From positions 26,784,001 to 26,848,000 of the forward strand of contig OU452201.1 of NCBI GenBank assembly GCA_911728435.2: DNA of 64,000 nucleotides, written 5' to 3'. A model generated the notes under the pieces. It did not search any database and was not told the DNA's origin. It saw only the letters and a list, made by a program, of their open reading frames with translations. Made by a program: the position numbers and the translations under genes. The stretch is from Apoderus coryli. Its lineage: Eukaryota > Arthropoda > Insecta > Coleoptera > Attelabidae. Positions within the stretch are counted from its first letter, which is position 1; every line of letters starts with the position of its first letter. This document shows positions 13,967 to 61,860 of the stretch, in pieces.

Positions 13967-14180
13967 TTTACAAAACAAAGACGTCTATTCCACAAAATGT
14001 TTTATTTTGATGTTCACTTAGCCAAACATGTTTCGGAACTCACTGTTCCATCATCAGCGGCATTAATAAGCCTTACAAAAATCTTACCTAATGTCTAAGC
14101 CGTATACATGGATTTTCGGAACATGAACACTAAAATATACAAAAGAAAAATAATAGTCAAGCAGTTATACAATGCTAACA
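13967..14180 (-). mobile_element. Penelope-type terminal repeat with hammerhead, copy A
   Basis: On the - strand this reads a roughly 90-nt lead, the hammerhead motif (14061-14021), about 30 nt, the conserved box GTGGAATAGACGTC, and TTTGTTTTGTAAATT ending at 13967. The end AATTTACAAAACAAAGACG is identical to the left boundary of copy B at 41225, which marks it as a true element junction. Upstream in this orientation lies a Penelope GIY-YIG frame (15960-15460), so this copy probably is the 3' terminal repeat of that element. Confidence 0.75.
14021..14061 (-). ncRNA. Type I hammerhead ribozyme motif, copy A (intact core)
   Basis: The - strand reads GCCG, CTGATGA, T, GGAAC-AGTGA-GTTCC, GAA, ACATGT, T, TGGC. 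This supplies stem I (GCCG/TGGC with one G-U pair), the invariant CUGAUGA and GAA, a perfect 5-bp stem II, a palindromic loopless stem III (ACA/UGU), and U at the predicted cleavage position. One extra U separates CUGAUGA from stem II, as in every copy here. Hammerheads in Penelope terminal repeats are known in animals. Activity is inferred from structure only. Confidence 0.8.
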
Positions 14181-14447
14181 AAACCACTTACAATTTTGTG
14201 AAAACTATTCAATAGTATAAAAACAATCAATGAGGTCAATTGATAAAATTTAGAAAACTTAAAAATTAATTACACCAATTGCAAACAGTAAATTTCATAG
14301 TGAATGATTTAATGTAAATGTTTTTTCTTGTAAATCATTTATATTAAAGATCTTTGAAAATATATTTTTCTACGACTGTCTTTAAATGCCTTTATTATAT
14401 GTTCAATCATGATGTGACAATGTAGTACATTGTAATGCTGTTTATCA

Positions 14448-14510
14448 TTTATCCGTGCGTAATAATAGTTACTAGGCAACTAGTGGGAAATATCATTACG
14501 CACGGATAAA
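14448..14510. repeat. Short perfect inverted repeat (16 bp)
   Basis: TTTATCCGTGCGTAAT at 14448-14463 is the exact inverse of ATTACGCACGGATAAA at 14495-14510, with weaker pairing outside. It resembles the end of a small MITE. Confidence 0.8.
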
Positions 14511-14825
14511 ATTTCATTGTGTAATCAATTGTAATGACAAAAGTAGCGGCGGGCATGAAAAATCACCATAGCAACGCCGAAAATACAAACACCAAATTGA
14601 CAGTTTCGGTATTTATAATTAATAATAATTATAATTAAGTATTTCGCTAATTTCAAAACACATAAACAGTGATAGTGAATATAGTTTAACACCACCAAGT
14701 CAATTTAATACTTCTAATTTATCGTATTTATGCTTATACGCTAACAAGGGTAAGTTTCGAAAAACAAATATTTCCCTAAAAATTATGTTAATTTTATTAA
14801 AAAGTATTAAAAGAGTCGTAGAAAA

Positions 14826-14959
14826 AGTATAGTGTGAAACTCACATGAAATGACCATTTCCTACTCGTATGATTTGCAGCACTCGCCTGCGGCTCATGCT
14901 GCAAACGATCATACTCGTAGGAAATATATGTCATTTCATGTTCGTTGCACAATATACTA
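14826..14959. repeat. Hairpin-forming inverted repeat, about 60-bp arms
   Basis: The arms 14826-14886 and 14889-14959 carry ATGAAATGACCATTTCCTAC and its near complement, meeting at a G+C-rich centre (GCACTCGCCTGCGGC). Mismatches and a few indels occur. It lies within the 3' region of the Penelope element and is probably a nested MITE. Confidence 0.8.
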
Positions 14960-15199
14960 TTATGTAGTTCTGATTTCAACCAAATTCGGTGTAGTGTCAG
15001 GTTTTTATAAATTTGGAGTGTCTAGTTAAACCCGGAAGTTAGTTGAACAAAATTCTACATTTACAAGAAGTAACGTTGAAAAAAAGGGGTGCCTAGGCCT
15101 AATCGTTCGAAGACAAACCCCTATATGTATGTTTGAAGTGGTAGGGATATTGGAGTAATTAATCTATCAAATTGATACAAAAGCCTGAAAACACAGACG

Positions 15200-15290
15200 T
15201 AAGCACTGCGCTACGAGTAGGTGTGGTTAGGGTTGGTATGAGGGTTGGTGTTGGTGTATTAGCGAAAGTTGGTGTTGTGCTGGGTGTAGC
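15200..15290. repeat. GTTGGTGT-rich degenerate minisatellite
   Basis: GGTTAGGGTTGGTATGAGGG is followed by GTTGGTGTTGGTGT-type units over about 90 bp. It is strongly strand-asymmetric (G/T on +). Read on the - strand it lies after the Penelope stop codon. Confidence 0.7.
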
Positions 15291-15459
15291 AGGAGATATA
15301 AAGGAAGAATAAGAATAGTTCGTCAACTGTCGTTGGAGTGATATGTCAACATGTCGTGACGCTGAATGTAAAATGTGAGGTTATGTGTGAAAATGGGGTA
15401 CTTGTTATTGTTAGAGGACTATGAAATGGGTGGAACTGAACGCTGGGAATTAAGTATGA

Positions 15460-15960
15460 ATGTTAAACGACGTCGAAGAACGGTAGGCAATCGAACTCTA
15501 GTTGGTCGTTGACACAGGTATAATTAGGGTCATGTTTGTAATTATTAATTTCTAGGCCCTCCAACACATTCAGTAGGGTGCTTTTAGGGCAGGAATTGAG
15601 CATTTTGGAGTTGGTATGTATGGAAAATGAGTGCCTGTCATTCACAATGTGGTTAGCAAAGGCCGAGGTGCTATTGATCTCGTCCACGTTATCTCGGGTA
15701 GCTTTATCTATGGTTTTGGAATGTTCTTTGATACGAGTTTCGAAGTTGCGGCCAGTTTGGCCTACGTATATGGTGTCCTATATAAGTGAGTGCATAATAT
15801 TTGGTTGCTCTGACTGTGTCATGCAAGGTAAGACCTTTGAAAGTGTGTTTGGTTAGGTGTTTGTAATAGATTTCATTAATGGTAGAAACTGGATAGTGGT
15901 TGGACTTGGCAATGTGGTGAATGGTTGACAGTTCATTGTTAAAATCAACTTGGGACATTG
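15460..15960 (-). pseudogene. Penelope-like element: linker and GIY-YIG endonuclease domain
   Basis: On the - strand the frame begins FNNELSTIHHIAKSNHYPVS, the region just after the Penelope reverse transcriptase thumb. It continues TFKGLTLHDTVRATKYYALT and, after a one-frame shift near 15780, DTIYVGQTGRNFETRIKEHS. IYVGQTGR..E.RIKEH is the signature of the GIY-YIG endonuclease that ends Penelope proteins. Next come ANHIVNDRHSF, a histidine-bearing motif, and LLNVLEGLEIN, the Glu-containing helix, before the stop at 15463. The reverse transcriptase core is missing: a LINE relic abuts at about 15965. One frameshift and one stop make it inactive. Confidence 0.88.
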
Positions 15961-15965
15961 CTGTT

Positions 15966-16505
15966 TATATAATTATTTATTAACCACACATTTAAATGTT
16001 TTCTGAATCCTCTAGTACGGATCTTTGGTTGTAGTCAACAGGAAGTAGATTAAACAATTTCTGGCCAATACTTATACATATAACTTCTTTGACCTATTGT
16101 TAAATATGGCCTAGGTAATCTAATATTTTCACCAGCCTTATATCTAGTACTGTAATAATTATGAGATATGTTACTGTCTAGCATATTGGTTTTTGACATG
16201 TGGAGTAAAGAACTTTTATAAAACAAGTTTTCAACGCTTAGCATGGAAAATCCCTGTAGATCTGATTCCCCACCCCATCCTACAATTCCGTAACATATTA
16301 GTGATTGTACTAAAGCGTAATACGAAATGAGCAAATTTTTCCTGTCAACTATCTTACCAAATTGCCTAAATAAATATATGAAGGATCGTATTCTCTTAAC
16401 TAAAGACAGGACATGCAAATCCCACCTCAAGCTACAGTCCACAATTATCCCCAAGTACTTTATATTATATATGTTCTATGTAAGACCCAGAGATCCCTAT
16501 CATCT
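15966..16505 (-). pseudogene. Jockey/CR1-like LINE reverse transcriptase C-terminus
   Basis: The - strand reads MGIIVDCSLRWDLHVLSLVK, then LLISYYALVQSLICYGIVGW, matching the thumb and post-thumb block LG+..D..L.W..H...+...+...Y..LV.S...YGI..WGG. It ends with TRYKAGENIRLP and SYMYKYWPEI, the conserved tail of this group. It is 5'-truncated. Its 3' end lies where the Penelope frame begins, so one probably inserted into the other. Confidence 0.8.
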
Positions 16506-16564
16506 GATAGTTTGATACCGATATAATTGTAGTTAGAAAATGGCACATATTTTTTTATATTTTT

Positions 16565-16770
16565 GTATTTGAGCAATTTGTAAGTAAAGACTCCTGCTTT
16601 ATGCGGTTTTAGTGTGGGCAATAGGATATAATGGAGCTCTACTTCGTGTCCCGCCATCGTTTGTGAACTTTGTTTTTCCGTATGCTGAAACACCACATGT
16701 CGCAATAAATATTTATACATCTTGTTATCCAATTTTCTATTTAATATAACAACTGTATATATACTCTCTC
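16565..16770. repeat. Dispersed repeat, copy 1 (see 35455-35675)
   Basis: Both copies contain GCCATCGTTTGTGAACT, a TGGAG(C/T)T(C/G)TTAC(T)TC(G/T)TGTC stretch, and a CACTAGATGTCGC/CACATGTCGC segment in the same order and orientation. The class is unknown. On the - strand copy 1 reads as a 90-codon frame with no recognised domain. Confidence 0.7.
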
Positions 16771-17730
16771 TTTATACGTAACAAGGAAGTTTTAAAAAAT
16801 TGAAGATTGCTAATGAAATTTGTATTGATTGCATTATTTATTTAAATAATTTGCATCTTTCCCACGATCAAAAGAGACAATTGCTCCAAATATGTTTAAT
16901 GCAAAAGTATATATACTCTAAAACCATCGTAATAAATTATTTTGCATGAGACAAAACGTAAAAAAACATCAAAGTCAATCGGCGAAAACAAATCTTCTCA
17001 TTATCGGATAATTGTTTGTATATATTTTTTCCTTTCTTACAATTTAATCGTATAACGTTAAATGAGACGTTTTCGCTTGGTGACTTTGCACTTTGCATAT
17101 TGACGTTAATTACAGTCTCTTTTTACCTAAAGACATATCCCCTTTTATCTTACAAGTACCATAATGATTACAGGCCATTACCCACGCTTTATCGGTTGGC
17201 TACGTACAAAATATATTGACGGTTTTATTTATTTGTTAGTATACTATAGGCTCTCCAGAGTAGATATATTGCAATTAAAGTTTCTGTATAGTAACAAAAG
17301 CAATAAACTAATTAGGAAAGTAATAACTATATTTAGCATGTAAAATATAACTATTTAAAACTTAAGGAACAATTAAAAGGAGTACGGATTATGCAACTTC
17401 GCATGCGCTTAACTATTGATATGACAGTAACAACTTTAAAACCTTTTTTAAAAAACGTCAATCAATTCATTCCTATTTCGATTTCTGTCGAAGTGTTTAG
17501 AAGATAATAGATTATTTGAAAGAATCGTATAACAATCATGATATACAAAAAGAAAGACAGGATAGCGTAATAATGTTAGTTATTAAAAAAATTATTAAAT
17601 CAAAAAAAATCCATAAAGAATGGTGAGTTGTTCATACTAATACAATTACTTTCAACACGTGTTCACTAATAAATATATTTCTAGACCTCAATAGAATTTT
17701 CTGGACCACTAATCTATAAGTTTCCCTTTT
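16771..17730. other. No gene recognised
   Basis: AT-rich stretch without recognisable coding or repeat structure. Confidence 0.5.
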
Positions 17731-17875
17731 GCCACTGATGATTGAACTGGTTTAAGTTGCGAAACATGTTTGGATGATTGATATAAATTTGTATTAAATT
17801 TATTTTTGTGGAGATTCGACTTTTATTTCGTCATTGAAAATATACAACTCCACTTAAGTATGGATTATTTTTTCA
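17731..17875 (+). mobile_element. Hammerhead-bearing terminal repeat, copy G (slightly decayed)
   Basis: GCCACTGATGAT starts the hammerhead (17731-17774), whose GAAACATGTTTGG half is intact. Stem II is imperfect, with AACT pairing AGTT inside mismatches. It is followed by GTGGAG (17808-17813), the exact complement CTCCAC (17848-17853), and the family 3' end ATGGATTATTTT at 17859-17870. Confidence 0.75.
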
Positions 17876-17909
17876 AATTAAATTAGGGAAGTTTTAAAAA
17901 ATTGTATTA

Positions 17910-18175
17910 CAATTGAAGCGCTTGGCGGAAAAAGGTAACAAGCCACACTTGTCATAAAAATGAGAAAACTATCTTTGACTGTTGTTCTTAATGAAAGAAA
18001 GTGATCTGTGTTTAATCTTTCGTAATTAGATAATAGGTGTTTTGTAGTAGTTTGTAAATTTCCTTTTACGATTAAAATATTATATTGCATATTTTGCACA
18101 AAAGGCAATAAGCAACATCAGTATTTAAAATTGCGACATGTGGCTTGCTACCTTTTGCCGCCAAGCTCTTCAATT
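17910..18175. mobile_element. MITE with about 38-bp terminal inverted repeats
   Basis: Left arm 17910-17947 (CAATTGAAGCGCTTGGCGGA...) is the near-complement of 18139-18175 (...CCGCCAAGCTCTTCAATTG). The interior is about 190 bp with no coding potential. No clear target-site duplication is visible. Confidence 0.8.
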
Positions 18176-18465
18176 TGAAATCTGCTTTCAGATTGGGGTT
18201 ATCTTTGTGATATTTGAGATAATGAGGGAAAACCGAAATGCTGCATTTTGAACTTTTGCGTGAAGCTTGGAAATATAGGTAGTATGGTAATATGCGATTA
18301 GGACACCTTTATTAGGAGAATTTAATGGAGGTAAAAATAATTTTCTAGCTTCATTTGTTTTCGACATATTCACATAAACTTTGTATTTTTTTATGGACGC
18401 CATCTTGTTTTTTTGTAATTTTGGAAACAGTTTTGCAAGAGGTTTTCATTGATTTATGTAAATGT

Positions 18466-18512
18466 TCGTGTAGAATGGTAAAAACACTACTCTCTGATAT
18501 CTTTACGGTAGG
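18466..18512 (-). pseudogene. Small mariner relic
   Basis: GAATGGTAAAAACACTACTC and TCTGATATCTTTACGGTA match the mariner copies at about 12132 and 43972. Confidence 0.7.
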
Positions 18513-18519
18513 TAGTTTC

Positions 18520-20290: not shown

Positions 20291-20295
20291 ATAGT

Positions 20296-21230: not shown

Positions 21231-21239
21231 TGACGGTCA

Positions 21240-22270: not shown

Positions 22271-22276
22271 TACAAA

Positions 22277-23760: not shown

Positions 23761-23763
23761 ATT

Positions 23764-30779: not shown

Positions 30780-30996
30780 ATTAAAGAAGTAATCCATTAG
30801 ATGCAGTGGAGTGTAATATAATTACAATAAAACAAAAATCATCGTCTCCACTATTTAATTAGTCCATAAATTATGAAATGCCAAAGGGACATGTTTCAGA
30901 GACTCCATCATCAGCCTTGGTGGTATAAAAATGCTCACTTTGTGAAGGCAGAGCTCCCAACAGACTCCAGAGAGAGAGAGATTTTTGTTTTATTGT
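30780..30996 (-). mobile_element. Solo hammerhead-bearing Penelope-type repeat, copy F, with exact 12-bp TSD
   Basis: The 217-bp insert is bracketed by AATCTAGATTAA at 30768-30779 and 30997-31008. On the - strand it carries the hammerhead (30920-30881), the box AGTGGAG (sense; + strand CTCCACT 30846-30852) and its 7-bp complement (30805-30811), then AATGGATTACTT, the family 3' end. The right end GAGAGATTTTTGTTTTATTGT is an inverted repetition of the post-box region, so the copy is partly palindromic. There is no coding sequence. Confidence 0.85.
30881..30920 (-). ncRNA. Type I hammerhead ribozyme motif, copy F (intact core)
   Basis: The - strand reads CCAAGG, CTGATGA, T, GGAGTCTCT (a short stem II with a 3-nt loop, including a G-U pair), GAA, ACATGT, C, CCTTTGG. 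Stem I pairs CCAAGG with CCTTTGG with one bulged U. All invariant core bases are present and the cleavage-site base is C. Confidence 0.75.
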
Positions 30997-34900: not shown

Positions 34901-36171
34901 GATTATCGAACCTGGTAGTAGTTCGGGTAGTAGTTCGGAAGATTGTAAGATGTGCGTTATATGCAAGCAACCTGGTAAGTCTCTTTGATTTTTCTATTTA
35001 TGTAGATTGAGGATAATATTTAATCCTGTAATAATTCTAATTTTACTGAGTAGAGATCCTACACCGCAGGTAGTTAATCCAATAAACAGCCAATCCATGA
35101 TAGATATCTATGAGATATCCATAAATTATTATTATTTGATTTGCTTGAATTAGTTATAATCCCACCAAATTATCATTATTAGTTTCGGTTTGAAAATATT
35201 ATCTCCATTTATTTAGGGCTATCTTCAAATAGCGTTATACGTCAATTTTAATAAAAGGATGTGTCATAAATAAAACGAGAGACCGTATTATTTATTTAAG
35301 AAATGCTTGTTACATAATACCATGCTTTCATCAGACGCGCCGTTTCGTTCATCCACAAATCATCAGTGGTTATCGGCAGGCAGTGTGACCCAAATTTCCA
35401 AAGCATGGTAATGGGAAACAAATTTCCAACATAATTAAAAGTCTTGTTACTTTATGTAAGAAGCAATTCGTAAATAAACCTCCCGTCAGGGAATTCGGGC
35501 GTATCTAGTGTTCGCAATATGATTTAATGGAGTTGTTACTTCTTGTCCGGCCATCGTTTGTGAACTGTGTGTCACCAGGCATATTGCCTGCTCACACTAG
35601 ATGTCGCCAAAAATATCTTGTTGTCACCTATTATTTATTTTTGCGGATATATCCATTTATACTCTCTAAGTATCTTGAATATCAGTAACAGAGTAAATCA
35701 AGCGAGAAGTTATGGCTGAGTTAGTTTTATAGATATGTAGGTACATTTTTCCAGCACTAGCACTAAAAACAATTTAAGCAACCTTCAATATTATACGATA
35801 TTATCTGAAAAACTTTCAAAATGTATCTAAATACTTTGATTCAAATAACATTACACACAATTATTAACCAGCGATATTTCGTAAACCATTTTTAGCTGAT
35901 TCTGGTTTTAGAGCTATGTCGGTATATCAATTTTTTTAAAACGTCAATTTTGGAATATATCCGGCGCTATCTTCAATTTCACACACCACATTTATGTTGT
36001 TAGCCTTATAATAATTTGTTTTTAGGTGTTTTATCCAAATGCGAGAGCTGTACGAATGCATTCCACACTAGCTGCCATAATCCGTCACTAACCCATACAC
36101 CACGACATTGTCCACGTTGTATTGGAAAGGATAAACGTACTGTTGGCGCACCAAATGTCCCATCTGGTTAA
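31953..36171 (+). CDS. PHF21A/BHC80-like PHD finger protein, five coding exons
   Basis: The coding exons are 31953-32039, 34025-34123, 34190-34585, 34653-34974 and 36026-36171, giving 349 codons. All introns are GT-AG, phases 0, 0, 0, 1. Residues 1-85 form a helical, probably coiled region (LEIPQELKKAIEKNQIG, then IKKEMRSIEDHMTALGLEQE) matching the N-terminus of PHF21A. Residues 150-180 (KFLGFFGLVTLEEVKEMEKK, NERKRRSTANPKYAY) match its GLVT...KRQERKRRTTANP block. The C-terminus has a C4HC3 PHD finger: CVIC, CESC, HTSC, CPRC. In vertebrates PHF21A is a subunit of the LSD1-CoREST complex and its PHD binds unmethylated H3K4; the same nuclear role is inferred here. The AT-hook (GRPPK) of vertebrate PHF21A is not visible; basic KRKRTISPANKRQATRKRQK stands there instead. 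It is shorter than the vertebrate protein, mostly in the low-complexity middle. Confidence 0.88.
32336..32802. mobile_element. MITE in intron 1 of the PHF21A-like gene
   Basis: The left end GGTTTAGCCAACTAATAATG pairs with CATTATTAGTTGGCTAAACC at the right. Further in, TAGTGCATAATGGATAA (left) pairs with TTATCCATTATGCACTA (right). The interior is about 360 bp, AT-rich, with many ATAATGCAT-type motifs. No coding sequence. Confidence 0.85.
35341..35369 (-). repeat. Degenerate hammerhead/Penelope-end relic in intron 4
   Basis: The - strand reads CCACTGATGATTTGTGGATG then AACGAAACGG, so CUGAUGA and GAAAC survive, but stem II is reduced to about two pairs. The following GGTCTCTCGTTTTATTTATG resembles the post-box segment of copy D (AGACGTCGTTTTATT). 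This is probably a tenth, old member of the family. Confidence 0.5.
35455..35675. repeat. Dispersed repeat, copy 2, in intron 4
   Basis: GGCCATCGTTTGTGAACTGT and CTAGATGTCGCC match 16640-16710 in order and orientation. The class is unknown. Confidence 0.7.
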
Positions 36172-38504: not shown

Positions 38505-39633
38505 AACTATTTCTTTAATGGTTCATATCGTCTTTTTTTTTTTCAACATTTCGACTGACTCAACTTGTCTTTTTCAAGATATTCTAAAATTAATAAGTTT
38601 ACAGTCAGTAACATAAAACACTTAAAAATACAACAATAAATATAATTACATAGATACTAATGTATAAACCATTACGTTAACACAAACAAATACAAAAATT
38701 ACATTACCTTTTCTTTTAATTCACAAACGTATTTTTTTTCTTTTCTTTTTTCATTATTACATTTTCGTTTCAAACAAGTACGTATAAAAAGAAGAAGAAA
38801 AATGAAAGAAATTGAAGATCAAGGTTCAAAAATAATAAATAAGAAAAATTATATGGCATGGATGAAAATATGCCAATGTCTATCTATTCTACAATCAAGC
38901 AGCAATATGGAAAACAGGTATTCAAAATGTGTGTCGATTTTTCTAAACACTTAAAGAAAATCGCTAATCAAAAAAATTGAAAAATAGTTCGACTACGTTG
39001 TAGATGCGAAAATCTTAAACCAAAGTTCCTAAAAACCAATTTACTACATTTGCCACCAATAAATAAGAGTTTGCAAGATCGTTTTAAAAACTTATTAAAT
39101 GATTTCACAAGTAAAATTCTAAAATTACTAATTTCCGATAATTATTACAATCTAAATTTTGATTATCTACACAATCACTTTTTTTGAAAGTGTTTTGAAA
39201 AATCGATACACATTTTGATAACCTGTTCTCCATGTTGCTGCTTGATTGTAGAATAGATAGACATTGACATATTTTCACCCATGCCATATAATTTTTCTTA
39301 TTTATTATTCTTGAACCTTGATCTTCAGTTTCGTTCATTTTTCTTCTTCTTTTTGTACCTACTTGTTTGAAACGAAAATGTAATAATAAAAAAGAAAATG
39401 AAAAAAAATGTTTGTGAATTGAAAAAAAAGGGAATGTAATTTTTGTATATATTTGTGTTAACGTAATGGTTTATACATTAGTATCTATGTAATTACATTT
39501 ATTGTCGTATTTTTAAGTGTTTAATGTTACTGACGGTAAACTTAATAATTTCAGAATTTCTTGAAAAAAACATGCTGAGTCTAGTCGAAACGTTGAAAAA
39601 AAAAGATGACATGAATCCATTAAAGAAATAGTT
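38505..39633 (+). mobile_element. Second Penelope-like element, N-terminal part, with an inverted terminal copy
   Basis: Left arm 38505-38953 and right arm 39180-39633 are inverted copies of about 450 bp at high identity. On the + strand, after a non-coding lead, the arm encodes MKEIEDQGSKIINKKNYMAW and continues into the central unique part KMCVDFSKHLKKIANQKN, then PKFLKTNLLHLPPINKSLQD. This matches the N-terminal Penelope region (..K+++ .NH..F..RC++..++PKFL+). The body after this is lost and replaced by the inverted terminal copy. Inverted terminal repeats are typical of Penelope elements. Stops break the frame. Confidence 0.75.
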
Positions 39634-41212: not shown

Positions 41213-41224
41213 GTAATTGAATAT

Positions 41225-41483
41225 AATTTACAAAACAAAGACGTCTACTCCACAAAATGTTTTATATTGATGTTCACTTAGCCAAACATGTTTCGGAACT
41301 CACTGTTCCATCATCAGTGGCTTTAATAAGCTTTTACAAAAATCTTACCTAGTGTCTAAGCCGTATACATACATTTTCGAAACATGAATACTAGAATATA
41401 CAAAAGAAAATCAGAATTGTGGAGTAGACGTCTTTGTTTTGTAAATGCATCCTGCTCCTCGTCGTAATGGATTATTTCAGAAG
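41225..41483 (-). mobile_element. Solo hammerhead-bearing Penelope-type repeat, copy B, with exact 12-bp TSD
   Basis: GTAATTGAATAT at 41213-41224 and 41484-41495 brackets a 259-bp insert. The left end (AATTTACAAAACAAAGACGT...) and the segment at 41418-41447 (...ACGTCTTTGTTTTGTAAAT) are exact inverted repeats of about 29 bp. After the right repeat the element continues to GCTCC and ATGGATTATTTCAGAAG, the family 3' end on the + strand. The hammerhead is on the - strand. Hence the copy joins an inverted terminal repeat to a normal 3' end, as in Penelope elements, with no coding sequence. Confidence 0.9.
41281..41321 (-). ncRNA. Type I hammerhead ribozyme motif, copy B (intact core, best pairing)
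   Basis: The - strand reads GCCA, CTGATGA, T, GGAAC-AGTGA-GTTCC, GAA, ACATGT, T, TGGC. Stem I extends to five pairs (AGCCA/TGGCT). Stem II is perfect, stem III is the loopless palindrome ACA/UGU, and the cleavage base is U. Sequence is identical to copy A except for one stem I base. Confidence 0.85.
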
Positions 41484-41499
41484 GTAATTGAATATGTTT

Positions 41500-45359: not shown

Positions 45360-47320
45360 CTAACCTAATACATACAAATGCAAAAGGTATTTGTCTCTCT
45401 CACAGCTTCAGACAATGGCAAAAATCATTTATGTTGCTAAAATAAATATTTATTCAGGTTATTATAAGAGAACAATGTAGGTAGTACTCATGAAAACTAC
45501 TCCAGAGATGGGAGTTCGATTCACCGCATGATTTATATTATTCTGTATTTTTCTGAATTTTAGAATTTTATTTTAAATATAATATACACTTAGTTGTCTA
45601 AAAGTTTTTATAAAATATATATAAATATAAAATTAAAGTACTTGATTATGAATTAAATTTCTAGTACACAGCCCTAAATCCGGCCGGTTATATTATGCGA
45701 AATGAAGTATCATGTAAGATCTAATCCACAGGAATATAGTTTGAACTAGGCAAGGAAAATTTGACTTAAAAAGGTGGACATCAACTTATTTACTGTATTT
45801 TATTATATTACGTAGGCTAAAATTAATCCCTGGCCTTCAGCGTGAAACACTTTGTATATCCACATAGGTTTATAGCTAAATTTACTTTCCTCTAAAAATC
45901 TATTTTAGTTCATATAAAGAAAAATGTCATTGTTAAAAGGAAATACAATGCTCCGTCATCCAATTTGATTATAACTGTTGTTTGTTACCTCAGTATAAAA
46001 TGCACAAAATATTGTTTATTTACATTGGCATTTTTAATGACTTTACGTGTGTTCTGCTCGCGATCACGAATCAACTTCAAACATAAAAATTCAAATAGTA
46101 ACATGCTTTTAGGTACTGACCATAAGTACATGGGTAATGCTTAACAAAAAAAAAACAGAAGCAAAATATACGCATGGAGTACCAATTTAAAATTATTCTG
46201 AACGCATTGTCGACCTATATATAATAGACTTTTGAAAAATGACACCGTACACCTTTCGTCTAAGTACAAAGATTTATACACGGTGGATAGGCCGCAACCA
46301 AAAATTATATATTTAATTTAAAGAAGTAAACAGAAAATAACTAACTTCGGTTATCCTAAAGTATCCGTCACCAAATAACATGAAAAGCCTAAAGATTATA
46401 AACATCCAGATAAAGGACAATGAGGATCTGTCAAAATATAATTTTCTATATTGGGAAAGACCCTCCTTGACACTGCTGTCGTGCATCTGACAAATGTATG
46501 TATAATTATTATGAGTTCAAAAATTCAAAAGTTTATGACATCATGTATGTTATACAAGAAGAAACTTATAAACCCATCCAAACCAATATTGAGGCTTAAC
46601 CAGATCTTGTCTAGTCTAATATTCAACACTGCTTACCCTAGGTCTTTGGAAATATTACCAATAGGGTTTGTTCACATCAAACAGGAGCTAGAATTATTTT
46701 ATCGATTGTAATAAAATGAAAACCCATTGAGTATGGTGATGCCTTTATCAATATGGTGATGCTGTTATATCGTACTTTTCTTAAAAAGACGGTCCTAAAA
46801 GTACCCACACATACCCCGGAAATACTCAAAGGAAAAACTCTATAGTGCTGTACTTTAGGATTTTGCAGAACTGAAGTTTACCATTGGATTTGATGTTTGA
46901 GTTTCAGTCCTCCCAATCGGCAATATAATTGAGATAAGCTTTCTTAGCAATCTTAGGCTAAATAGAAGAAAATTGGCTGCTCGCAACTCATTTAACTAGT
47001 GACGCTAAACATACCTAGACAAATTTCCCCACCACACAGGTGATACTATCCCGATTATATTTAACTTTTTCATTACCATTTACAATTTCTTGTTTATACG
47101 CAGAGTTAACCGCACTATTTTGCCTTACCCTAGTCTGCACTAATGATCTTAGAGACGGCGTAGGTCTGACGCTCGTCTTGATCTCCAATTTTCGTTCGTA
47201 ATTTAATTTGTTAAAGCTGTTGTAAAGAACAAAATCCACGATACCTGTCTTCGCCGATAGAAAATACTTACATAAACACTTAAAATTGAAGCCACTACTT
47301 ATTATTACACATTTTCTAAA
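45360..47320. other. No gene recognised
   Basis: The frames at 46451-46711 (+) and 47329-47015 (-, 104 codons) have no domain I recognise. Confidence 0.4.
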
Positions 47321-47890
47321 ATAATCCATATCCAGAGAGGAGCGGTGAATTTATATTCAAATAAAACTACGTCTGCTCCACAAAACATTCGTACATGTAT
47401 TCATATTATTGAAGAACAGTCAGACATGTTTGGAGGTCGTCAGGTCTCATCATCAGTGATATATTAGTTACAAGGAAATTCCATTATGTTAAAGTAATAG
47501 TAAAGAAACATCAAGCATTCTTTGAAAAACTTTTATATGAAAAAAAAACAGGATTCCTATAATAGCTTAATTATCATTATTATCATATAATTATATTTTA
47601 TCACAATGGTGTTGTGGGCTTTTTCTTATTTGTCATTACGATTGTTTTAATTTCAATCCGTGATGCTTGTGCGAACTATGGTAGAGATACTAAAATCTTG
47701 AACACACCATAGTGCAAGTTCTGCCTAAAAGGCAAAAAATCACAAACATATTGAAGCTTACGATTATTAATTAGTTTTCTGAAAAATTCTTTGAGGTAGT
47801 TTTTGTGAACAATTACGGGCTGCGTGGATTTTAGAATGTAAAATTATAGGAATCCTGTTTTTTTTATATAAAAGTTTTTCACAGAATGCG
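47321..47890 (-). mobile_element. Hammerhead-bearing Penelope-type repeat, copy C (mutated core)
   Basis: The - strand carries TCA-CTGATGA-T, a stem II with GAG/CTC closing, CAAACATGTC and TGA (47459-47420). The invariant G of GAA is C, so cleavage is unlikely. The 3' stem is GGAGC (box, + strand GCTCC 47375-47379) with GCTCC (+ strand GGAGC 47339-47343), followed by ATGGATTATTTT. Toward 47890 lie 47-bp inverted arms, 47514-47563 and 47843-47889, around a 280-bp loop. Confidence 0.75.
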
Positions 47891-48293: not shown

Positions 48294-48487
48294 TAGAAAA
48301 TCCAATGAAGAAAACGAACGTCGGTAAGTTGTAGTATCGCGTTAATGCACTACTATCAATCACCAGTGCTTCGGTAGCTTAATGGTAAAAGCAAATGCCC
48401 GGAAAGCGTGAGACGTGGGTTCGATTCCCACCTGAAGCGAATGATTTTTACAACTTACAGACGTTCGTGTTCTTCATTGGAATTTCT
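48294..48487. repeat. Inverted repeat enclosing a tRNA-like sequence
   Basis: Left arm 48294-48334 (TCCAATGAAGAAAACGAACG, then TCGGTAAGTTGTA) pairs with right arm 48447-48487 (TACAACTTACAGACGTTCGT, then GTTCTTCATTGGA) with two mismatches. The tRNA-like sequence sits between the arms. Confidence 0.85.
48368..48438 (+). tRNA. tRNA-like sequence, 71 nt, isotype uncertain
   Basis: It folds as a cloverleaf: acceptor GCTTCGG/CTGAAGC (one G-U), D stem GCTT/AAGC, anticodon stem AATGC/GCGTG with one mismatch, and T stem GTGGG/CCCAC with loop TTCGATT. Box A TAGCTTAATGG and box B GGTTCGATTCC match the RNA polymerase III consensus. The anticodon loop is CCGGAAA, which would give anticodon GGA, but position 33 is C instead of U and the variable arm is too short for tRNA-Ser. 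I therefore treat it as a tRNA-derived element or pseudogene rather than a standard gene. Confidence 0.7.
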
Positions 48488-49264: not shown

Positions 49265-49780
49265 ATGAAAAAAACAACATATTGAATAGTAATTAATTAT
49301 AATTGAATATTTTGTATAATTTGATCTAATTTGTACAATACGTTTCAATTTTTCGTTTTGTTAACCTTCAATTTAATGTCAATGCCAATACGTCAAGGTC
49401 AACTTTCTGAAAAATTTTTGAATGTCATAAAAATAACTAATCATTCTATTTCGAAAACCGCATGGTGCCAATAACAATCTTAAAGTAATATAATTTTAAA
49501 AAACGCCTTGATTAAAATTTCAACGCATTAATATGCGTAAAAAATTCAAAAAACTAATATGCGAATGTGAATGTGTGATTTCAGTTGATTATTTCATACA
49601 TTCTCAATAAACAATTTTAGTTTCTATTTTTATATAAAAAATCTTTTCCACAATGTGGAAAGTAATAAATCTAACACCATTGATATAGTTTATATTATAA
49701 CATCATTAAAATTCTTTTACAGACTTAATAATTTTAAATAACCAAGTACACAAATGTTCAAAATTACAATTTTCTAAATT
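49265..49780. other. No gene recognised
   Basis: AT-rich sequence only. Confidence 0.45.
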
Positions 49781-49781
49781 A

Positions 49782-49910
49782 TCACTGATGATGAGGTTGA
49801 AGACCTCGAAAACTGTTGAATTATATAAGTGAATATTGTGGAGTAGACGACTTTCATTTATAACATCTATACTCCTCGTATGAAATTGATTATTTTACGA
49901 AAACATATTG
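49782..49910 (+). mobile_element. Hammerhead-bearing repeat, copy H (decayed cleavage site)
   Basis: TCACTGATGAT opens the motif. Stem II GAGGT-TGAAG-ACCTC is a perfect 5 bp, and GAAA is kept, but the cleavage base is G and stem I does not pair. It continues with GTGGAGTAGACG. The 3' stem is GGAGTA (49840-49845)/TACTCC (49870-49875), followed by ATTGATTATTTTA. Confidence 0.75.
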
Positions 49911-50344
49911 AATATATTTCAAAATTTGTTGTGACTCCTCACATATCTAAAAGGTAGGAATTAGTAAATCAACTATCTCTCGAGTTGATTATAGGAATTA
50001 AACAGATGGTTAATATTTTTAAACTCAACAAAATAATATTGTCATATACATCTAGTCGCACCATTTTAACCGAACTTGCTCTTAAATCACTTTCAGATTT
50101 TTCACATAAAATAAACCTCGGAGAAGCCTAATAGCGAAAGTAGGGACGTATATTAAAGAACAAATTCTTACAAACCCTTGGGAATCCAAGTCATCACTTT
50201 AAGGTTAATTTTTGCTTTAAGACATTGTTGTTAGACACCTTTCTTTTACATATTGTTTAAGGACAATTGATATAATAGGACGTAATATAATGTTCAGGCA
50301 TAGAAAAGAAAATTATGCCTTACATAATTAAACTTTTATAAATA

Positions 50345-50490
50345 CTCTGAAGTAATCCATCTATCGAGGAGTGAATAGTATGATTTGAATAAAACGACGT
50401 CTACTCCACAAAATGATCTATATTTATACGTTAAAACCTTGTTTTAAATGCCAGACATGTTTCGGACTACACGTCCATCATCAGTGGCTT
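50345..50490 (-). mobile_element. Hammerhead-bearing Penelope-type repeat, copy D
   Basis: On the - strand the order is hammerhead, about 40 nt, TGTGGAGTAGACGTCGTTTT, 3' stem GGAGT/ACTCC (+ strand 50403-50407 with 50368-50372), then ATGGATTACTTCAGAG. I find no exact target duplication. The upstream side (50490-50900) is not recognised. Confidence 0.82.
50450..50488 (-). ncRNA. Type I hammerhead ribozyme motif, copy D (intact core)
   Basis: The - strand reads GCCA, CTGATGA, T, GGAC-GTGTA-GTCC, GAA, ACATGT, C, TGGC. Stem I is four perfect pairs and stem II is four perfect pairs with sequence different from copies A and B, so the stem is conserved while its bases change. The cleavage base is C, the commonest natural choice. 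Confidence 0.85.
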
Positions 50491-50499
50491 AAAGAACCT

Positions 50500-51640
50500 T
50501 ATACAGTATTGTCAGATGTGAGGGTCGTACTTCATACAAATGTTAAGAGAGAGTTTTACATTGGTTTAAACGTTTATACATATCACCTTGTTGGAAATAA
50601 ATTGAGTTTGTTAAATTAATAAATTATAGTTAAATGGTTGGAAATTTGTCAATTATTTTTGTTTTTCTTTCGTGTTTTCTTCTTTTTCTCATTTTTCAAA
50701 AGTAATTAAATTAAAGTTTTACGATCTGGTAAGATCATTAATTCATTTTATAAATACATTGAAATATCTATATGGAAATATAATACATGTGACGAAACAG
50801 AAAGATATTCTAAAATATTGCACATATATTATAAAGAAATCTAGGAAAATTAAATGTAGTGCATTGTGTTCATTCGATACATAACCAAAAAACAGTTTAA
50901 AACTTTGGCCACGTATTTAATACAACAACTTGAAAAACATTGATTTATGCAGCATATCTATGCAAAACATGTCTAATATTTATATCATCCCTGTATAGAA
51001 AATGAGAAGTCATGTTCTCTGAAACGCTCATACATATTGCTCTAATAAAATTGTAAAGAAAAATTACTTGGTACGTGCAGGCTGTAATAATATGAAGTAT
51101 AAAATGCAACACTGACCTTGACACTGTAACTCAGTGTTCAATATGCATTTAATATTATTTATTATTTGTAGCATAACAAAAACTATGTACTTGTAAACTT
51201 CGACATGGCTAGTATCGCTACTACAAATTTCATTTAAGACAGGTATATAATAACCAAGACGTGCTGCAATTTTTCAGTATGCAAACTGGCAATTAGGGAC
51301 CACAAGTACTGGTTAACTTACAAGTGCCCATATGCCACACACAAAGACCTCTTAAAGTAAACAATCAGATTTTGTTTATATGGTTACAATGTCAGTAAAA
51401 AGTTGCAAATATATAGAGATTAATTAAAGAAACGTTCCTATTAAAAGGAGGGGGTTTGATATGGAAATTAATACAACCAGTTCTCATTAAATAATTAGTC
51501 AAAATGACTATCTATGATCTTGATTTTAAAGAAGAAAATTGGGCTAGTCAGTGCCCTGTTTATGAAATTTTAGTTCAGTTGTATAGACCTTAGTTTTATT
51601 GATAGTTACGATAGAAATACCGCGTATCTTCCATTATTAT
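50500..51640. other. No gene recognised
   Basis: A 70-codon frame at 50672-50884 has no known domain. Confidence 0.4.
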
Positions 51641-51649
51641 TTCAAAGTA

Positions 51650-54790: not shown

Positions 54791-54929
54791 ACAGTATTAA
54801 TTTTAATTATACATTTTAAATATTTCCTGAAAGTGAAATTACAGAAAAGATCAGCTCTGTCGTCTAAGATGATTTTGATGTAAGTACAAATTTGTATGTA
54901 TTGTATTTAATAATTATTGTCCGTAGATC

Positions 54930-55880: not shown

Positions 55881-58235
55881 AGTTAAGTAGTAAAATATAT
55901 CTGACTTTCCTTTGTGATTTTAAAATAGTTTTCTAAATCTAATAATGTCACTGTTAACTGTGAGACACGGTTCAAATACAGACCGTCACCCGTCACTCGT
56001 TTACGAGGGAGAATCATTAAGACCCTCTTTTGTGAGCGTGATGTAAGTGGGCGATTCTCGAGTAGGTTTACAAGCCAAGCGAGTAAATTATTAAATCCAA
56101 AAGAATACAATGAATAAATACCAAACACCAATCTTTATTTATTTTTCCTCTAAATTGATATTCTCATACTTATATTATTGTGACACAAGGAGCCTCTACC
56201 TTGTCTCCCTATATTTTCATATACTTATTGTGACAATAAATTAGGATATTATTGTTGAAAATTAAAAAATTAACTAAAAATATATTTGTGTATTTTTACG
56301 TTTAAGAAAATTGGAAATGTAATATAATTTTAAATCATGATGCATAAGTGATAACAAGGCTTATTTTAACCACTGTCCTGCTTTTTGAGAAAGCACCTGA
56401 TAACAAATTTGAAAATTTCGAGGATTTCATACTCGAAGGAATATCAAAATTTACAAAAATGTCGTCCAATTATGACTACGTATTGCAGCTTCAGTTAATT
56501 CAATCATACATCATTACCAGATTTCCAGTAGAAAAAAATATATATTTAATATTTAAAGATACGACAAAGAGTCACTCTTGATAAAAGTTTCTGCCTCTCA
56601 AAAACATATGATTTGTAGAACGAAAATCCCATAGCATATTATACAGTGTCTTCAATAATGGACTTCAAAATAATACCAGTTGGTATTATTTTTTATTTTT
56701 GTGCGAAAATGACATTATGAAAAGTGGTCTAGAAACATCTCTTTAGATATTTGCTTCTGCCAATAATATTTTTTTTCTGGTCGCAGATGGACTTTACAAA
56801 AAAACATATTATGAAGGTCCATTTTCTACCAAAAACTTAAAATACCTACTTTACTTTATTCAAATAACTCATAATAATTATTATTTAATGTAAATTAGTT
56901 GGCATCACAATACTATCTACTGAGCAACAGTTTTTAAAACTCATTATTTGGGTGTTTCGCCACTATTTAATCTAGTCTAGCTACAACAAACATATAGAAG
57001 CCAAACGGTTTTTATTCTAAACACTGTAAGTCAAGCATCATACTGCTACATCAAACAACAAATTAAAAAAAATTACTCGAATGAAAATCTGCAAAAAATG
57101 TTTCAAAGAAATGGTTTGGTTTTGAGATGGTAAACGCTGCTTAAATACATACTTTATGATCAAATTATTAAAGGCTTAGTATTGTTTTATAATTACCACA
57201 GTAAATAGTTCTTCAAAAATGATTTATACGTTGGCAGAGAGAATACGGCAGTGAAAATTGTTGTCCTCCTATTACAGCAGTACCTAGTTTTTACCGCTAG
57301 ACACCCTGGTAATAATACAAGCCACCGGTATGTAATTGATTTAGGAAGACATTTTTTTGCTGCTCCTATTTTTTCCGCTCAAAAGCAAAATGGACGTATT
57401 TTTGCTGAGAATCGTTTCATCATTATATGGCGAGTTCTTCTATGTGGCAAATTTCAAATCAAAACACTATACACAAAACAACAAAAATAAACGCACCAGT
57501 ATTTGATAGCAATTATTTTTAACCGCTTTTTTTCGAAATGTGCCACACCATTATTTCTATTACCAAAGTTTTAAAAAAATCATTGGTGAGAATCAAATAT
57601 CTTTAATACAATAATGCAACTTTAGTAAAACCAACGACAATATTATTAGATACCTGATTTATGTAACGTGGTTGATGATAATAATATCTTCTTGCCTTTT
57701 TATTTTAGAGGTGTTTGAATAAATGAAAGATATTTTGTTAAAAACTTTATTTTTACGTTAAGCGTTATGGGCGTTTAATAGTTTCATTTAATAAATTTAA
57801 AAATTCCTTCTAAACAGCGTTTCAGGCACTAATTGAAAGAAAATTACTTTAAATTATTTTTAAAAACGCCACCTTTTTCCTTTCCTATACCTCTTTTAAT
57901 CTATTTCTGTGTTTGTTTTTCAGAACCATTAAATACAATTTTATAACGAAAAAAAAAAAAGAATCAATTTACGGAACCACCGTATAGATATTTTAAATTT
58001 AGAAGAGCGGCTAAATTATACCTTTGGGTTGTGAATATATTTCACCATTGGTCGTTCTTGAAATTTTCTTCTGACCGTCGAGAACACTGAGTAAAGTTAG
58101 CTGTGGATAAAAATAGACAAGAATATTTCTTAAGAGTTTACTACAATAAGAAAGTGATAATTATCGCATTAAAGCTCATAATTTGGGTATTTCGCACTTT
58201 TTTAAAATTCAAAATATCAACAAAAACGTAAATTA
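55881..58235. other. No gene recognised
   Basis: Short frames only. At 55970-56080 there is a slightly more complex block with partly inverted GAGGGAGAATC/GATTCTCGAG motifs of unknown nature. Confidence 0.4.
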
Positions 58236-58239
58236 AGAA

Positions 58240-58340
58240 ACTTGTCTCTATGAAGTCCTAACGTTTCTGTTCCCGTCGTCAGACGATAAAAATCAAACAG
58301 ATTAGTTCCCGAAACGTTAGGTCTCCACAAAGATAAGTTT
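58240..58340. repeat. Inverted repeat with CTGACGA and GAAACGTTAGG motifs (possible Penelope relic)
   Basis: AAACTTGTCTCTATGAAGTC then CTAACGTTTC on the left pairs with GAAACGTTAGGTCTCCACAAAGATAAGTTT on the right. On the - strand CTGACGAC-GGGAAC precedes CAGAAACGTTAGG, and the + strand has GTTCCCGAAACGTTAGG. Joined, these would resemble a hammerhead-like order, but no single strand holds a complete one. Confidence 0.4.
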
Positions 58341-58349
58341 TTGTTATAA

Positions 58350-58975
58350 AGGGTATCCAAAAATTAACGCAAGATTTGAATTTGCCGCCATTTATGCAGT
58401 AAAGTATTGGCAACCCTAAAAACAAAAAAAAATAGTCAGCTGACAGTTTAGGGTTAGTAGAAATGGAGCGCTATACGATAGAACAAAGTGTCTTGATTCC
58501 AAAAATAATGAAAGCTTGGCGGAATAGTGTTTTAATTTCGACAAATGTGAAGAGATTAATTGAAAAATTTCGGGAGACAGCATCCGATGGAGACGCCAAA
58601 CTCACTGGTCGTCCAAAAACAAGCCGTCCAAATGTCAATATCGAAGCAGTGCGTGAGAGTGTCTGTGGCAATCCAGGAACCTCAGTTCGGCATCGTGTAC
58701 AATAATTGCAAATTGCAAGAAGCTCTCCACAGCCTAGACTCACTAAAGATCTGTGTCTCCATGCTTACAAAATTCAAGTAACACAACAACTGAAGCCTAA
58801 TGACCCAGTACAGCGAAGAGAGTTTGCTGAATGGATTATTCAGCATCATCAAATGAATGCTGATTTTTCGAGCCAAGTCATCCTAAGCGACGAAACACAT
58901 TTTCACCTTGATGGATTAGATAACTTTTTAGTTGACGTTCTTTATGAGAAGTTATATATAGTTTTCATATAAACT
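58350..58975 (+). pseudogene. Tc1/mariner (DUF4817-type) transposase, N-terminal half
   Basis: The frame from ATG 58463 reads MERYTIEQSVLIPKIMKAWR, VKRLIEKFRETASDGDAKLT and GRPKTSRPNVNIEAVRES. After a frame change near 58700 it continues LTKDLCLHAYKIQVTQQLKP, FAEWIIQHHQMNADFSSQVI and LSDETHFHLDG, the first catalytic Asp. It stops soon after, so the last two catalytic residues are gone. The first helix-turn-helix is shortened relative to family members. Confidence 0.85.
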
Positions 58976-59044
58976 AAACCATTGAGTCCAAATAAATGTA
59001 TTCATAATTTTCTAGCAAAAATGGGGCCTACCATCACAAGTTCT

Positions 59045-59155
59045 TTAGATCGTCAATCCTAAATCAGACCAAGGCTGTGATTTACTAATATAATCACGTC
59101 CGTGATTCACTAATATAACCACGGCCTTGGCTTGTTATGATTTAGGATTCACGAC
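59045..59155. repeat. Hairpin-forming inverted repeat
   Basis: AATCCTAAATCAGACCAAGG pairs imperfectly with CCTTGGCTTGTTATGATTTAGGATT around a centre with two ACTAATATAA copies. Confidence 0.75.
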
Positions 59156-59207
59156 TTTTATGAAAAATTAAGAAATTTATGTGTCCGTAAATATAAATGA
59201 TAAATAA

Positions 59208-59598
59208 TTTCGTGGCATAGCGGACTGAATGACTGGTTTTACCTACACAAGGGTTTTGTTTAATTTAGCAGGGCCTCAGTCTAATTCAGTAGGACCAGAC
59301 AGAGGCATGGGTCGACAGATACGGACGAATTCGTTTCGCTCTTATTATGAGCTCGTCAAAGTACCATAGTCGTTGCCCATCTACAATACCGGCCTGCATT
59401 TAATCACAATGAGATATACAGCAGTAGATATCTGTAAACTAGTACCATATACATATACACACAGTAATGCATATCCCACCATAACGAGGCCGATCAAATC
59501 AAATGTCTGGTTCTACTGAATTAGACTGAGGCCCTGCTAAATTAAACAAATCCCTTATGTAGGTAAAACCAGTCATTTTGTCCGCTATGCCACGAAAT
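59208..59598. mobile_element. MITE with about 95-bp terminal inverted repeats
   Basis: Left arm 59208-59300 (TTTCGTGGCATAGCGGAC...GGTTTTACCTACACAAGGG, then GGGCCTCAGTCTAATTCAGT) pairs with 59503-59598. The middle of 200 bp has no coding sequence. A partial relative lies at 42501-42565. Confidence 0.9.
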
Positions 59599-59599
59599 T

Positions 59600-61430
59600 T
59601 TCTTTTATGAAAAGTGACATATATTTCGCTTTAAAATTACCTTAGTTTTAAGAATGCCTAAATCAAAAGTAAGAATTCTTCACCGTTGGTACTAATGTGT
59701 GTATCCTTTTGCAGTTTTCTGTTGTAGTGATAGAGGTGGGTTATATGGACACGTTCCTCAAGTAGGCGTAGACACTTATGTAGACGATCTCAACGGGCCT
59801 TTATAGTTTTTTGATGTATTAGCCAGATATCTATCTTAAAATACGAAACTAGATGGATTTTTGATGGATTATACGACGTAAAAACAATAACCGCGTGACC
59901 GCCTCAAAGGGGTGTCTCTTATTTTGTTTTTCTGCCGTTTCATTTTATAAAAGTGCTTGCGTAGAACTATTTGATATTACAAGACATATCGTCTCACCTA
60001 AATCAGTTTGTAGGTTAGACAACCGAATAAAATTCTGTTTGTTTTAGGGATGGTAATTTGACAACCGTTAGGATGCTAGAAGTGTCTAACATATTTAAAA
60101 AATTACAAAGTAGGATGCATATATGAATTAATAACTGTTCAGATCGTACATTACGGATATTCAGTCATTTATTGAATGTAACTATAATTCTGCTGTATAT
60201 ACAGGGTGTTTCAAAAAGGCGCGGCAATATTTAAGGGGTGATGTGATGGGTTTTCATAAACATACGTCTAAGATACAAGTTTTTTTGTATATAACAGTTA
60301 TATTTAATTGTCAGATATCTTCTTACCGATTTTTTTGAAATTATGAAAAAAGTTGTTGTTCAAATTAAGGACCTTATATGGCCCTAACTAGATCAAAATT
60401 AATTAAATAAATTCTAATTTAATTTTTGAGATAATGCCTTGAGATAAAGCAATTAAAACTACAACTTTTTTATCTCTCGTATTTTGTCATATGTTGCTTC
60501 GTTTACGAGATACAAATTTAAAACATTTTTCAACATACACTGAAAAAAAGATTTGTTTGGATAAAAAAAAAATGGAGTTGAACCAAACAAATATTTCTTC
60601 GGTATACGACAAAAAACCCACGTACTTGAGACGAATATATGATTTATTTGAAATACCCAAGTAGTATTTTTTTGACTTAAATAAATATTCATTTGGCTTA
60701 GTACTTAGGTATACGAGTACTTACTTTTTAACAAGGCCCGAAGATGTAAGGATATATTTGTTTGCTTGAACTAGCTAGAGTTATTTAGAAGAAAGATTTG
60801 TACTTGGCCCAAAGGTACTGCTACTTGGAATAAATAAATATTTGTTTATTCTGAATAAACATTTTTTTATATTAAATGATTTTTTCTATCCAAACTAATA
60901 ATTTGTTCCGGAAAATCTGATATTTTGCTTCCAATAAATACTTTGTTTGTTACAAATAAATATTTATTTCTTCAAACATGTTTTTTTCTAGAAATTAATT
61001 TACAAATATTTTTGTTAATAAAACTAGGAACTGTTTGGATGAATTGTTCAAAAAACACCTACACACGTAATAGTTTGGGCAAAGATTAATCTACACAATA
61101 GATAGTCAGCCCAATGCATTAAAATGAGAACATCTCTAAGTATGCCAGCCACTACGTGGCGTAGACTAGCGTGTAAAGCATAGAGCAGTATTGTCACAGC
61201 CAGAAACCGTTTTGTAGTTTATTAATATCAGAAACAAAACGCAACGTATAACAATTATTTACATCATTTGCAACAGTTATGCACCGACAATGCTGTATTG
61301 TCAGAGAGAGAGATTGATGAAATTCTGTATTAATCTGGAGGGGATACGTAGGGAGGGTAGAAAAAAAAACAAGCGAATGTGGTGTGTGTCGTGCTGTTGC
61401 CGATTCGTCGGTAAAAGAAACACACAGGGT
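59600..61430. other. No gene recognised; transposon-end fragment and AAATATTTGTTT-rich stretch
   Basis: TATACAGGGTGTTTCAAAAA at 60199 is the kind of end found in several insect DNA transposons, but nothing else of the element is clear. From 60540 to 60990, variants of AAATAAATATTTGTTT recur at irregular spacing. Confidence 0.45.
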
Positions 61431-61434
61431 GATT

Positions 61435-61860
61435 TATTACAAGTACAGTATTGAAATAAAAGCCTTATCTCTATGAATTAAATTTAATATAATAATATTT
61501 AATCCATGTCATACATGTTTCAAGACTAGACCAGTCCCATGATCAGTGGCGAACAATCATTAAATGAAAAGCTTTTAGATAGAAACATACTTCTGGCTCC
61601 ATTGTAATAATTTGTTGATGTATATAAAAAAATCTAAATATCTAAAAGCTAAAAGCTTTTGATTTAATTATTGCTCGCCACTGTTTATGGGACTGGTCTA
61701 GTCTTGAAACATGTTGTATGGCATGGATTAATGATTATTAGGTATATTAAATTTATTTCGTGGATATTAGACTTTTATACCAATACCGAAATCAAGTAGG
61801 TATTAATGTACATTATTCTTTGTCAAAATTATAACTCCACTTAAGAATTGACTAGATACT
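61435..61860. mobile_element. Palindromic hammerhead-bearing repeat, copies E and E' (decayed)
   Basis: Two copies face each other. E on the - strand (61550-61508) has GCCACTGATCATGGGACTGG then TCTAGTCTTGAAACATGTAT, with one core mutation (CUGAUCA). E' on the + strand (61677-61722) has CTGTTTA in place of CUGAUGA but the same stem II and GAAACATGT. Between them AAAAGCTTTTAG and CTAAAAGCTTTT also pair. E' is followed by GTGGA (61760-61764) and TCCAC (61836-61840). The head-to-head arrangement is like the Penelope copy at 38505-39633. Confidence 0.75.

Follow-up and report, generated by a model that had tools for sequence, protein, structure and literature searches.

Hammerhead motifs dispersed through an Apoderus coryli genomic window are very probably minimal ribozymes in the pseudo-LTRs of Penelope-like elements

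The 64,000-nucleotide stretch of Apoderus coryli DNA that we analysed (contig OU452201.1, positions 26,784,001 to 26,848,000; hereafter the window, part of contig C10 in our numbering) carries a dispersed family of type I hammerhead motifs. These are very probably minimal hammerhead ribozymes (HHRs) in the pseudo-long terminal repeats (pLTRs) of Penelope-like elements (PLEs). An earlier, sequence-only reading had recognised the family and pointed to Penelope terminal repeats as one place where hammerheads are known to occur, while professing itself unable to place it; the location was rightly named, and the family can now be placed, as PLE pLTRs, by one complete element (locus L030) and by 14 of 16 PLE copies chosen without regard to the motif. 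The feature is correct and belongs to a known kind. What our analysis adds is this placement, the failure of Rfam to see the motif, covariation within a single genome, and a one-tailed/one-untailed pattern among paired insertions.

The link to PLEs is clearest in L030, the one complete element fetched, in which an HHR at 732 is followed by an 859-codon open reading frame (ORF) for reverse transcriptase (RT) and endonuclease, beginning with MDYF, and then by a second HHR at 4217, with an HHR-to-HHR period of 3,485 bp. The L030 ORF matches RVT_1 at E 3.8e-12 (6.3e-8 in L025), the RT domain expected of a PLE, and its translation contains FRYVDD; the expected endonuclease is seen in the L027 frame, which matches GIY-YIG above the Pfam cut-off (E 9.8e-5). 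Pfam found no GIY-YIG match in the frames of L024, L025, L026 and L030, where YVGQ/YIGQ..R..EH is visible by eye. All four fetched head-to-head HHR pairs spaced 1.2-3 kb apart enclose PLE coding sequence, recognised by RVT_1 in L025 and GIY-YIG in L027 (both above the Pfam cut-off), by an L025-protein match in L024, and by a 74% match to a GIY-YIG remnant in the window together with a YVGQTGR motif in L026.

A genome search with the L025 protein, in which 106 of 3,268 first-look candidates were scored, returned many stop-to-stop frames of 850-887 amino acids in tandem and head-to-head arrangement. The array on contig C15 advances in steps of about 3.3-3.5 kb, the tandem or partial tandem with shared pLTRs known for PLEs. 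From this search we picked 16 divergent PLE copies by protein match only (49-57% identity), and 14 of them have a same-strand HHR downstream (E 1.4e-15 to 3.1e-11), amounting to about nine distinct HHRs. The named proteins closest to the PLE of the window come from insects, namely Coccinella septempunctata (42% over 60% of the query) and Cacopsylla (31%).

The excess of the motif in the window bears out the claim that a dispersed type I hammerhead family is present. The pattern CTGATGA-N6..20-GAAA occurs 7 times in the 64 kb against 0.64 expected (100 shuffles; largest 4), and the full minimal type I hammerhead, defined by stems I and II of at least 4 pairs each and an A..U/H17 joint, occurs three times, at 50484, 41317 and 14057 on the minus strand (200 Markov-1 simulations: mean 0.005, largest 1). 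Genome-wide, the strict pattern CACTGATGATG-N6..16-CGAAACATGTYTGG has 1,191 forward and 1,173 reverse exact matches, 2,364 in 428 Mb, and the reversed-pattern control has 0; both this pattern and our loose scan exclude G at H17. A profile from 15 copies gave 27 matches at E<1e-6 and one weaker match in 264 contiguous kb including the window, a density of about 1 per 10 kb in which the 27 include the 15 seed copies and some are two halves of one insert. By simple extrapolation this density would correspond to some 40,000 profile matches genome-wide. The results point to a genome in which PLE ends number in the thousands and many PLE frames are open. Clusters at G000:C15:217378-237883 and G000:C101:97395-108175, tandem on both strands, contain several long open frames, which suggests that PLEs have been active recently.

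The 100 strict-pattern matches listed first all lie on contig C1 and comprise 36 distinct sequences. Of these, 25 went into a covariance model, R1, which therefore contains no C10 copies and with which membership in the family was judged; the 11 distinct HHRs absent from it include several with weaker stems. By this C1-only model, nine of the ten loci first noted are one family. E-values in the window are strong for 41282-41319 (9.6e-18), 50451-50486 (2e-16), 14022-14059 (4.1e-15) and 17733 (3.3e-10), intermediate for 47420 (1.2e-6), 61509 (3.7e-5) and 30888 (1.3e-4), and weak for 49783 (3.4e-3), 35353 (0.014) and 61679 (0.055), the last of which is not significant alone and is backed as the inverted partner of 61509. 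Three of the four loci described as complete (14021, 41281 and 50450) hold up; in the fourth, 30881, stem II reaches no more than 3 bp. Among the six proposed decayed relatives, 17731, 47420, 49782, 61508 and 61677 are indeed family members, with the correction that 61508 and 61677 are not separate loci but halves of one head-to-head inverted pair. The sixth, 35341 (match 35353), belongs elsewhere, being a copy of a separate retrozyme-like family, a 337-bp tandem element with a type I HHR.

The copies possess the core CUGANGA ... GAA and the stems I and II that characterise a type I hammerhead. That stem II varies in sequence yet stays paired, as had been proposed, is supported in the 36 distinct C1 sequences by 32 cells in which both sides have changed, where shuffles give 10.4 (0/500), and by a covariation score of 0.333 against 0.130 (0/500); shifting the partners by a single column lowers the share of paired cells from 90% to 51% or 40%. 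Stem I and the outermost stem II letters of these sequences were fixed by the search pattern. Because kinship alone can beat shuffles, the structural support rests also on stem I in loci outside the pattern's choice, where we find the co-varying forms GCCA/UGGC, ACCA/UGGU, GUCA/UGAC, GUUA/UAAC and AAGG/CCUU. Across 35 distinct HHRs from the fetched loci and the window, stem II averages 4.8 bp against 2.5 in shuffles (largest 3.4 of 2,000) and stem I averages 3.8 against 3.4 (largest 3.7). Judged from these alignments, stems I and II evidently keep pairing while their letters change.

The stem III described in the sequence-only reading did not survive. Only the palindrome ACAUGU lies between GAA and H17, which on inspection leaves the monomer at most 1-2 pairs and no stable stem III hairpin. 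The family thus fits the minimal PLE variant of the type I HHR and not the classical form. Of 69 loose matches, 66 have CATG as the four letters that separate A15.1 from U16.1, and TATG, CTAG and ACTG appear once each; these matches partly overlap and count some loci repeatedly (L025 and L028 overlap). By its self-complementarity ACAUGU, and likewise the single ACUAGU, can potentially join two HHRs. The latter occupies the centre of an HHR-like copy at L011:7424-7456 (covariance model E 0.066), which has the stem I AGGA/UCCU and is possibly a compensated variant of the dimer joint. An extra U between A9 and stem II is found in all three complete window copies and nearly all other listed copies, the decayed L014 copy having A in that position. 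The spacer is U in 69/69 loose matches, from a scan that required a one-letter spacer and so is silent on spacerless copies. A viroid hammerhead with one additional core nucleotide is reportedly the subject of one paper.

The anatomy of the insertions is also that of PLEs. Sampled HHR copies are often short end-fragments flanked by target-site duplications (TSDs) and are often arranged head-to-head; in the first hundred entries of the match list, which all come from C1, every neighbouring pair within 1 kb (15/15) has this arrangement. We examined these 15 close pairs and the four wider ones described above, of which 18 are independent, L043 and L044 being near-identical. A direct repeat of 9-17 bp, sometimes of low complexity, lies just outside both ends in 16 of the 18, and no credible TSD was found at L032 and L034. 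The two ends of a pair take different forms. One, the untailed end, stops inside the loop of a GTGGAG...CTCCAC hairpin downstream of the HHR, and the other, tailed, continues 5-8 codons into the ORF. By eye, one end is tailed and the other untailed in 22 of 24 head-to-head pairs (17 of the 18 independent pairs and 5 of the 6 additional pairs in the C10 region); none of the 24 is concordant, and L032 and 61555/61672 are unclassifiable. If ends were independent with equal odds, 22 discordant pairs out of 22 would arise by chance about 2 times in ten million. Head-to-head inverted pLTRs, short TSDs and an optional tail are together recognised PLE traits.

Several observations weigh against the interpretation of these motifs as PLE ribozymes. 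Two of the five covariation measures are unremarkable (double-changed pairs, 234/500 shuffles; pair types, 60/500), and in 16/35 HHRs the fifth pair of stem II does not form. Helix III gains no support from covariation beyond the one CTAG variant, the palindrome centre being nearly invariant, and when seven window copies were cofolded with themselves the expected dimer with paired ACAUGU formed for 14057 only. Two of the 16 PLE copies, L056 and L058, show no motif within the 1.4 kb fetched. In vitro, HHR mutants of the anole PLE were not impaired in insertion, according to the relevant passages of PMC11167929. Finally, the Rfam hammerhead families gave no hammerhead match at E<=1 to the motif adjoining PLE coding sequence in L026, L027 and L030. 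The sequence-only reading had proposed the Rfam models as its check and background scores as grounds for rejection; the main family yields no match in the window at gathering score or at E<=5, and taken literally those grounds exist. The refutation is invalid, since the motif goes undetected by Rfam even where PLE coding sequence adjoins it; these PLE hammerheads escaped the Rfam hammerhead models in every case tried.

Alternative readings must account for the same setting. Non-autonomous metazoan retrozymes, which are tandems of 150-450 bp with classical type I HHRs and no link to PLE coding sequence, would share the ribozyme type, and many of our copies are short and non-coding. Such an element even exists in this genome, as the 337-bp tandem of L016 (RF00163, 32.3 bits), and it explains 35341. 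We nevertheless regard a retrozyme origin of the main family as very unlikely, given pLTRs that lie beside RT/endonuclease frames, close pairs that run head-to-head and not head-to-tail, a tailed 3' end that enters the start of the PLE ORF, and the HHR-ORF-HHR structure of L030. The insertion at 41225-41483, short and with a 30-bp perfect inverted repeat, might be taken for a miniature inverted-repeat transposable element or another DNA transposon with inverted ends and an incidental hammerhead likeness. We rejected that interpretation of the repeat, which proved to be the PLE 3' end copied in head-to-head orientation, and with TSDs varying from 9 to 17 bp, PLE frames (including RT-coding copies) between inverted ends, and covarying stems, we give it practically no credence for the family.

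The motif might be kept for a non-catalytic reason, for instance as an RNA structure recognised by the PLE protein without any need to cleave, and the portions of PMC11167929 that concern the anole PLE describe an HHR uncleaved without protein and dispensable for insertion in vitro. The same account has that HHR cleaving when the protein is present, and here the catalytic core and both stems are kept in PLE copies with only 49-57% protein identity to the query. We consider a purely non-catalytic role improbable, and retain the interpretation that these are ribozymes of PLE pLTRs.

It is possible to outline how such a ribozyme would act. A tandem PLE transcript would carry two or more HHRs; each alone would have no usable stem III hairpin, and the ACAUGU palindrome could pair two of them, which fits a putative cleavage as dimer; the cut would follow the C, U or A in front of the 3' arm of stem I. 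The most likely role, we infer, is the trimming of tandem transcripts to units. The reviews PMC6155905 and PMC7761336 likewise describe PLEs as carriers of minimal type I HHRs whose role is unknown and which may act as dimers in cleavage. At the target, the PLE protein may nick both strands and start reverse transcription at one of two places within the RNA, a little ahead of the start codon or else 5-8 codons into the ORF, and read back across an uncleaved HHR. Since the RT start sites are downstream of that HHR, the inserted ends must have come from RNA in which it was still uncut. If this happened on both strands, a head-to-head insert would result, tailed at one end and untailed at the other.

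The tail states suggest two coordinated RT start sites. It is tempting to go further and speculate that the starts are fixed and non-equivalent, one per target strand and an obligate pair that always leaves exactly one end of each kind, within a dimeric RNA-protein complex in which two template RNAs, partly joined by the dimeric ribozyme, are copied into both sides of one break; we offer this as a doubtful proposal. The pattern bears on the open question of how PLEs integrate. The in vitro study PMC11167929 describes, in the parts relevant here, an HHR, a tail and internal RT start. It reports that both strands are cut and extended and that RT begins at either of two sites, without a difference between strands. 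PMC3846280 lists among PLE hallmarks inverted pLTRs, a 9-bp TSD, an optional 31-bp tail on one inverted pLTR and a pLTR that extends into the ORF. A strict alternation of one tailed and one untailed end goes beyond what these excerpts state.

The family shares much with the Penelope/Poseidon PLEs as described in those portions of the literature, the anole Poseidon PAc (PMC11167929) and Adineta vaga Penelope (PMC3846280): RT and GIY-YIG in one ORF, tandem or head-to-head pLTRs, TSDs, an optional tail at one end, a pLTR running into the ORF, and an HHR with stems I and II. It differs from them, as far as those sections go, in that a single genome holds strict matches in the thousands and has several HHR subfamilies. 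The anole start codon coincides with the beginning of stem II, a placement that the same A9-U-G letters would accommodate. We rejected an ATG within the HHR as the PLE start codon of L030, in which, unlike the anole element, the open frame begins downstream of the first HHR, about 120 nt away at the MDYF codon, without overlap. Minimal PLE-linked HHRs were reportedly described by Cervera and de la Pena in 2014. In the passages of PMC7761336 on Luense et al. 2017, minimal dimeric PLE-linked HHRs are small type I ribozymes without helix III, dispersed in thousands, some in PLE pseudo-LTRs, with reported dimer cleavage; ours show no difference in kind, ACAUGU and the extra U after A9 being the form taken here. 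With Rfam RF00163 (Hammerhead_1) the family shares the core CUGAUGA...GAA and stems I and II, but it lacks the stem III hairpin and has no match even at a relaxed E-value.

Among the window copies, the minus-strand segment 13960..14334 is a pLTR fragment of the GGAAC/GUUCC subfamily with the minimal type I HHR 14022-14059 (R1) and an untailed 3' end; its pieces are 87-95% identical to the head-to-head pLTR pair L043/L044. A decayed PLE coding remnant (15475..15961, also minus strand; C-terminal RT / GIY-YIG endonuclease), found by tblastn, lies upstream of the 14057 HHR, from which a different repeat separates it; it is 74% identical to the endonuclease frame of L026 and 47-49% identical to P0001, and its Pfam GIY-YIG score is below cut-off (E 0.0014). 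A single element spanning 15961-13960 is not established, since 14365-14961 matches other repeats. The pLTR at 17723..17898 (plus strand; nhmmer 100.0 bits, itself a seed) has a decayed HHR at 17733-17773 and continues to ATGGATTATTTT.

Two short minus-strand insertions were delimited by repeats and the covariance model. That at 30780..30996 has a 5' inverted fragment, a decayed HHR (30888-30914), a tailed 3' end, a 20-bp inverted repeat and the TSD TTAATCTAGATT on both sides (12-bp direct repeats). In that at 41225..41483, an untailed pLTR with the HHR 41282-41319 stands head-to-head with a tailed inverted fragment, between copies of the 12-bp TSD GTAATTGAATAT at 41213-41224 and 41484-41495. 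The minus-strand pLTR at 47311..47464 (nhmmer 55.1 bits) carries a decayed HHR (47420-47458) followed by ATGGATTATTTTAG (MDYF, the PLE ORF start); a frame that contains MDYFRK occupies 47015-47350. On the plus strand, 49779..49920 (nhmmer 25.7 bits, covariance model E 0.0034) is a pLTR whose decayed HHR, 49783-49816, retains stem II as GAGGU/ACCUC and has lost stem I. A solo pLTR insertion on the minus strand (50346..50745; covariance model and direct repeat) has a complete HHR (50451-50486), a tailed 3' end ATGGATTACTTCAGA and the 12-bp TSD GTATTTATAAAA at 50334-50345 and 50746-50757; its HHR is identical in sequence to that of L027, whose pair encloses the GIY-YIG frame. The decayed head-to-head pair at 61453..61789 (nhmmer 30.5 and 28.6 bits), with HHRs at 61509-61548 (minus) and 61679-61721 (plus), coincides with the inverted repeat I11.

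The remaining hammerhead locus, 35292..35618, is a decayed head-to-head copy of the 337-bp type I HHR retrozyme-like element, with 35292-35381 on the minus and 35401-35618 on the plus strand; by blastn its halves are 81% and 88% identical to the L016 tandem monomer. The tandem itself (L016:1727-2457) bears a classical type I hammerhead that scores just under the RF00163 cut-off of 34, and has the non-coding head-to-tail form of metazoan retrozymes, which the main family, consisting of PLEs and their fragments, does not. Extracts of PMC7229834 report metazoan non-LTR retrozymes with type I HHRs in insects, and those of PMC7761336 name PLEs as candidates for moving retrozymes, a proposal that the head-to-head arrangement at 35292-35618 fits. 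The only other retrozyme-like match in the window is a decayed fragment at 16610-16675, and a further decayed copy lies at L005:9639-9881. Type III-like hammerheads occur in a separate dispersed element (L001:1501-1557, L002:1501-1556 and L003:1501-1562; RF00008, 36.3-37.8 bits, cut-off 48.5). Elsewhere in the window, large inverted repeats with arms of 67-359 nt at 718-2673, 6542-7841 and 38557-39581, near frames that look transposase-like by eye, are probably DNA transposons, and a tRNA match lies at 48368-48439 (RF00005, 60.6 bits).

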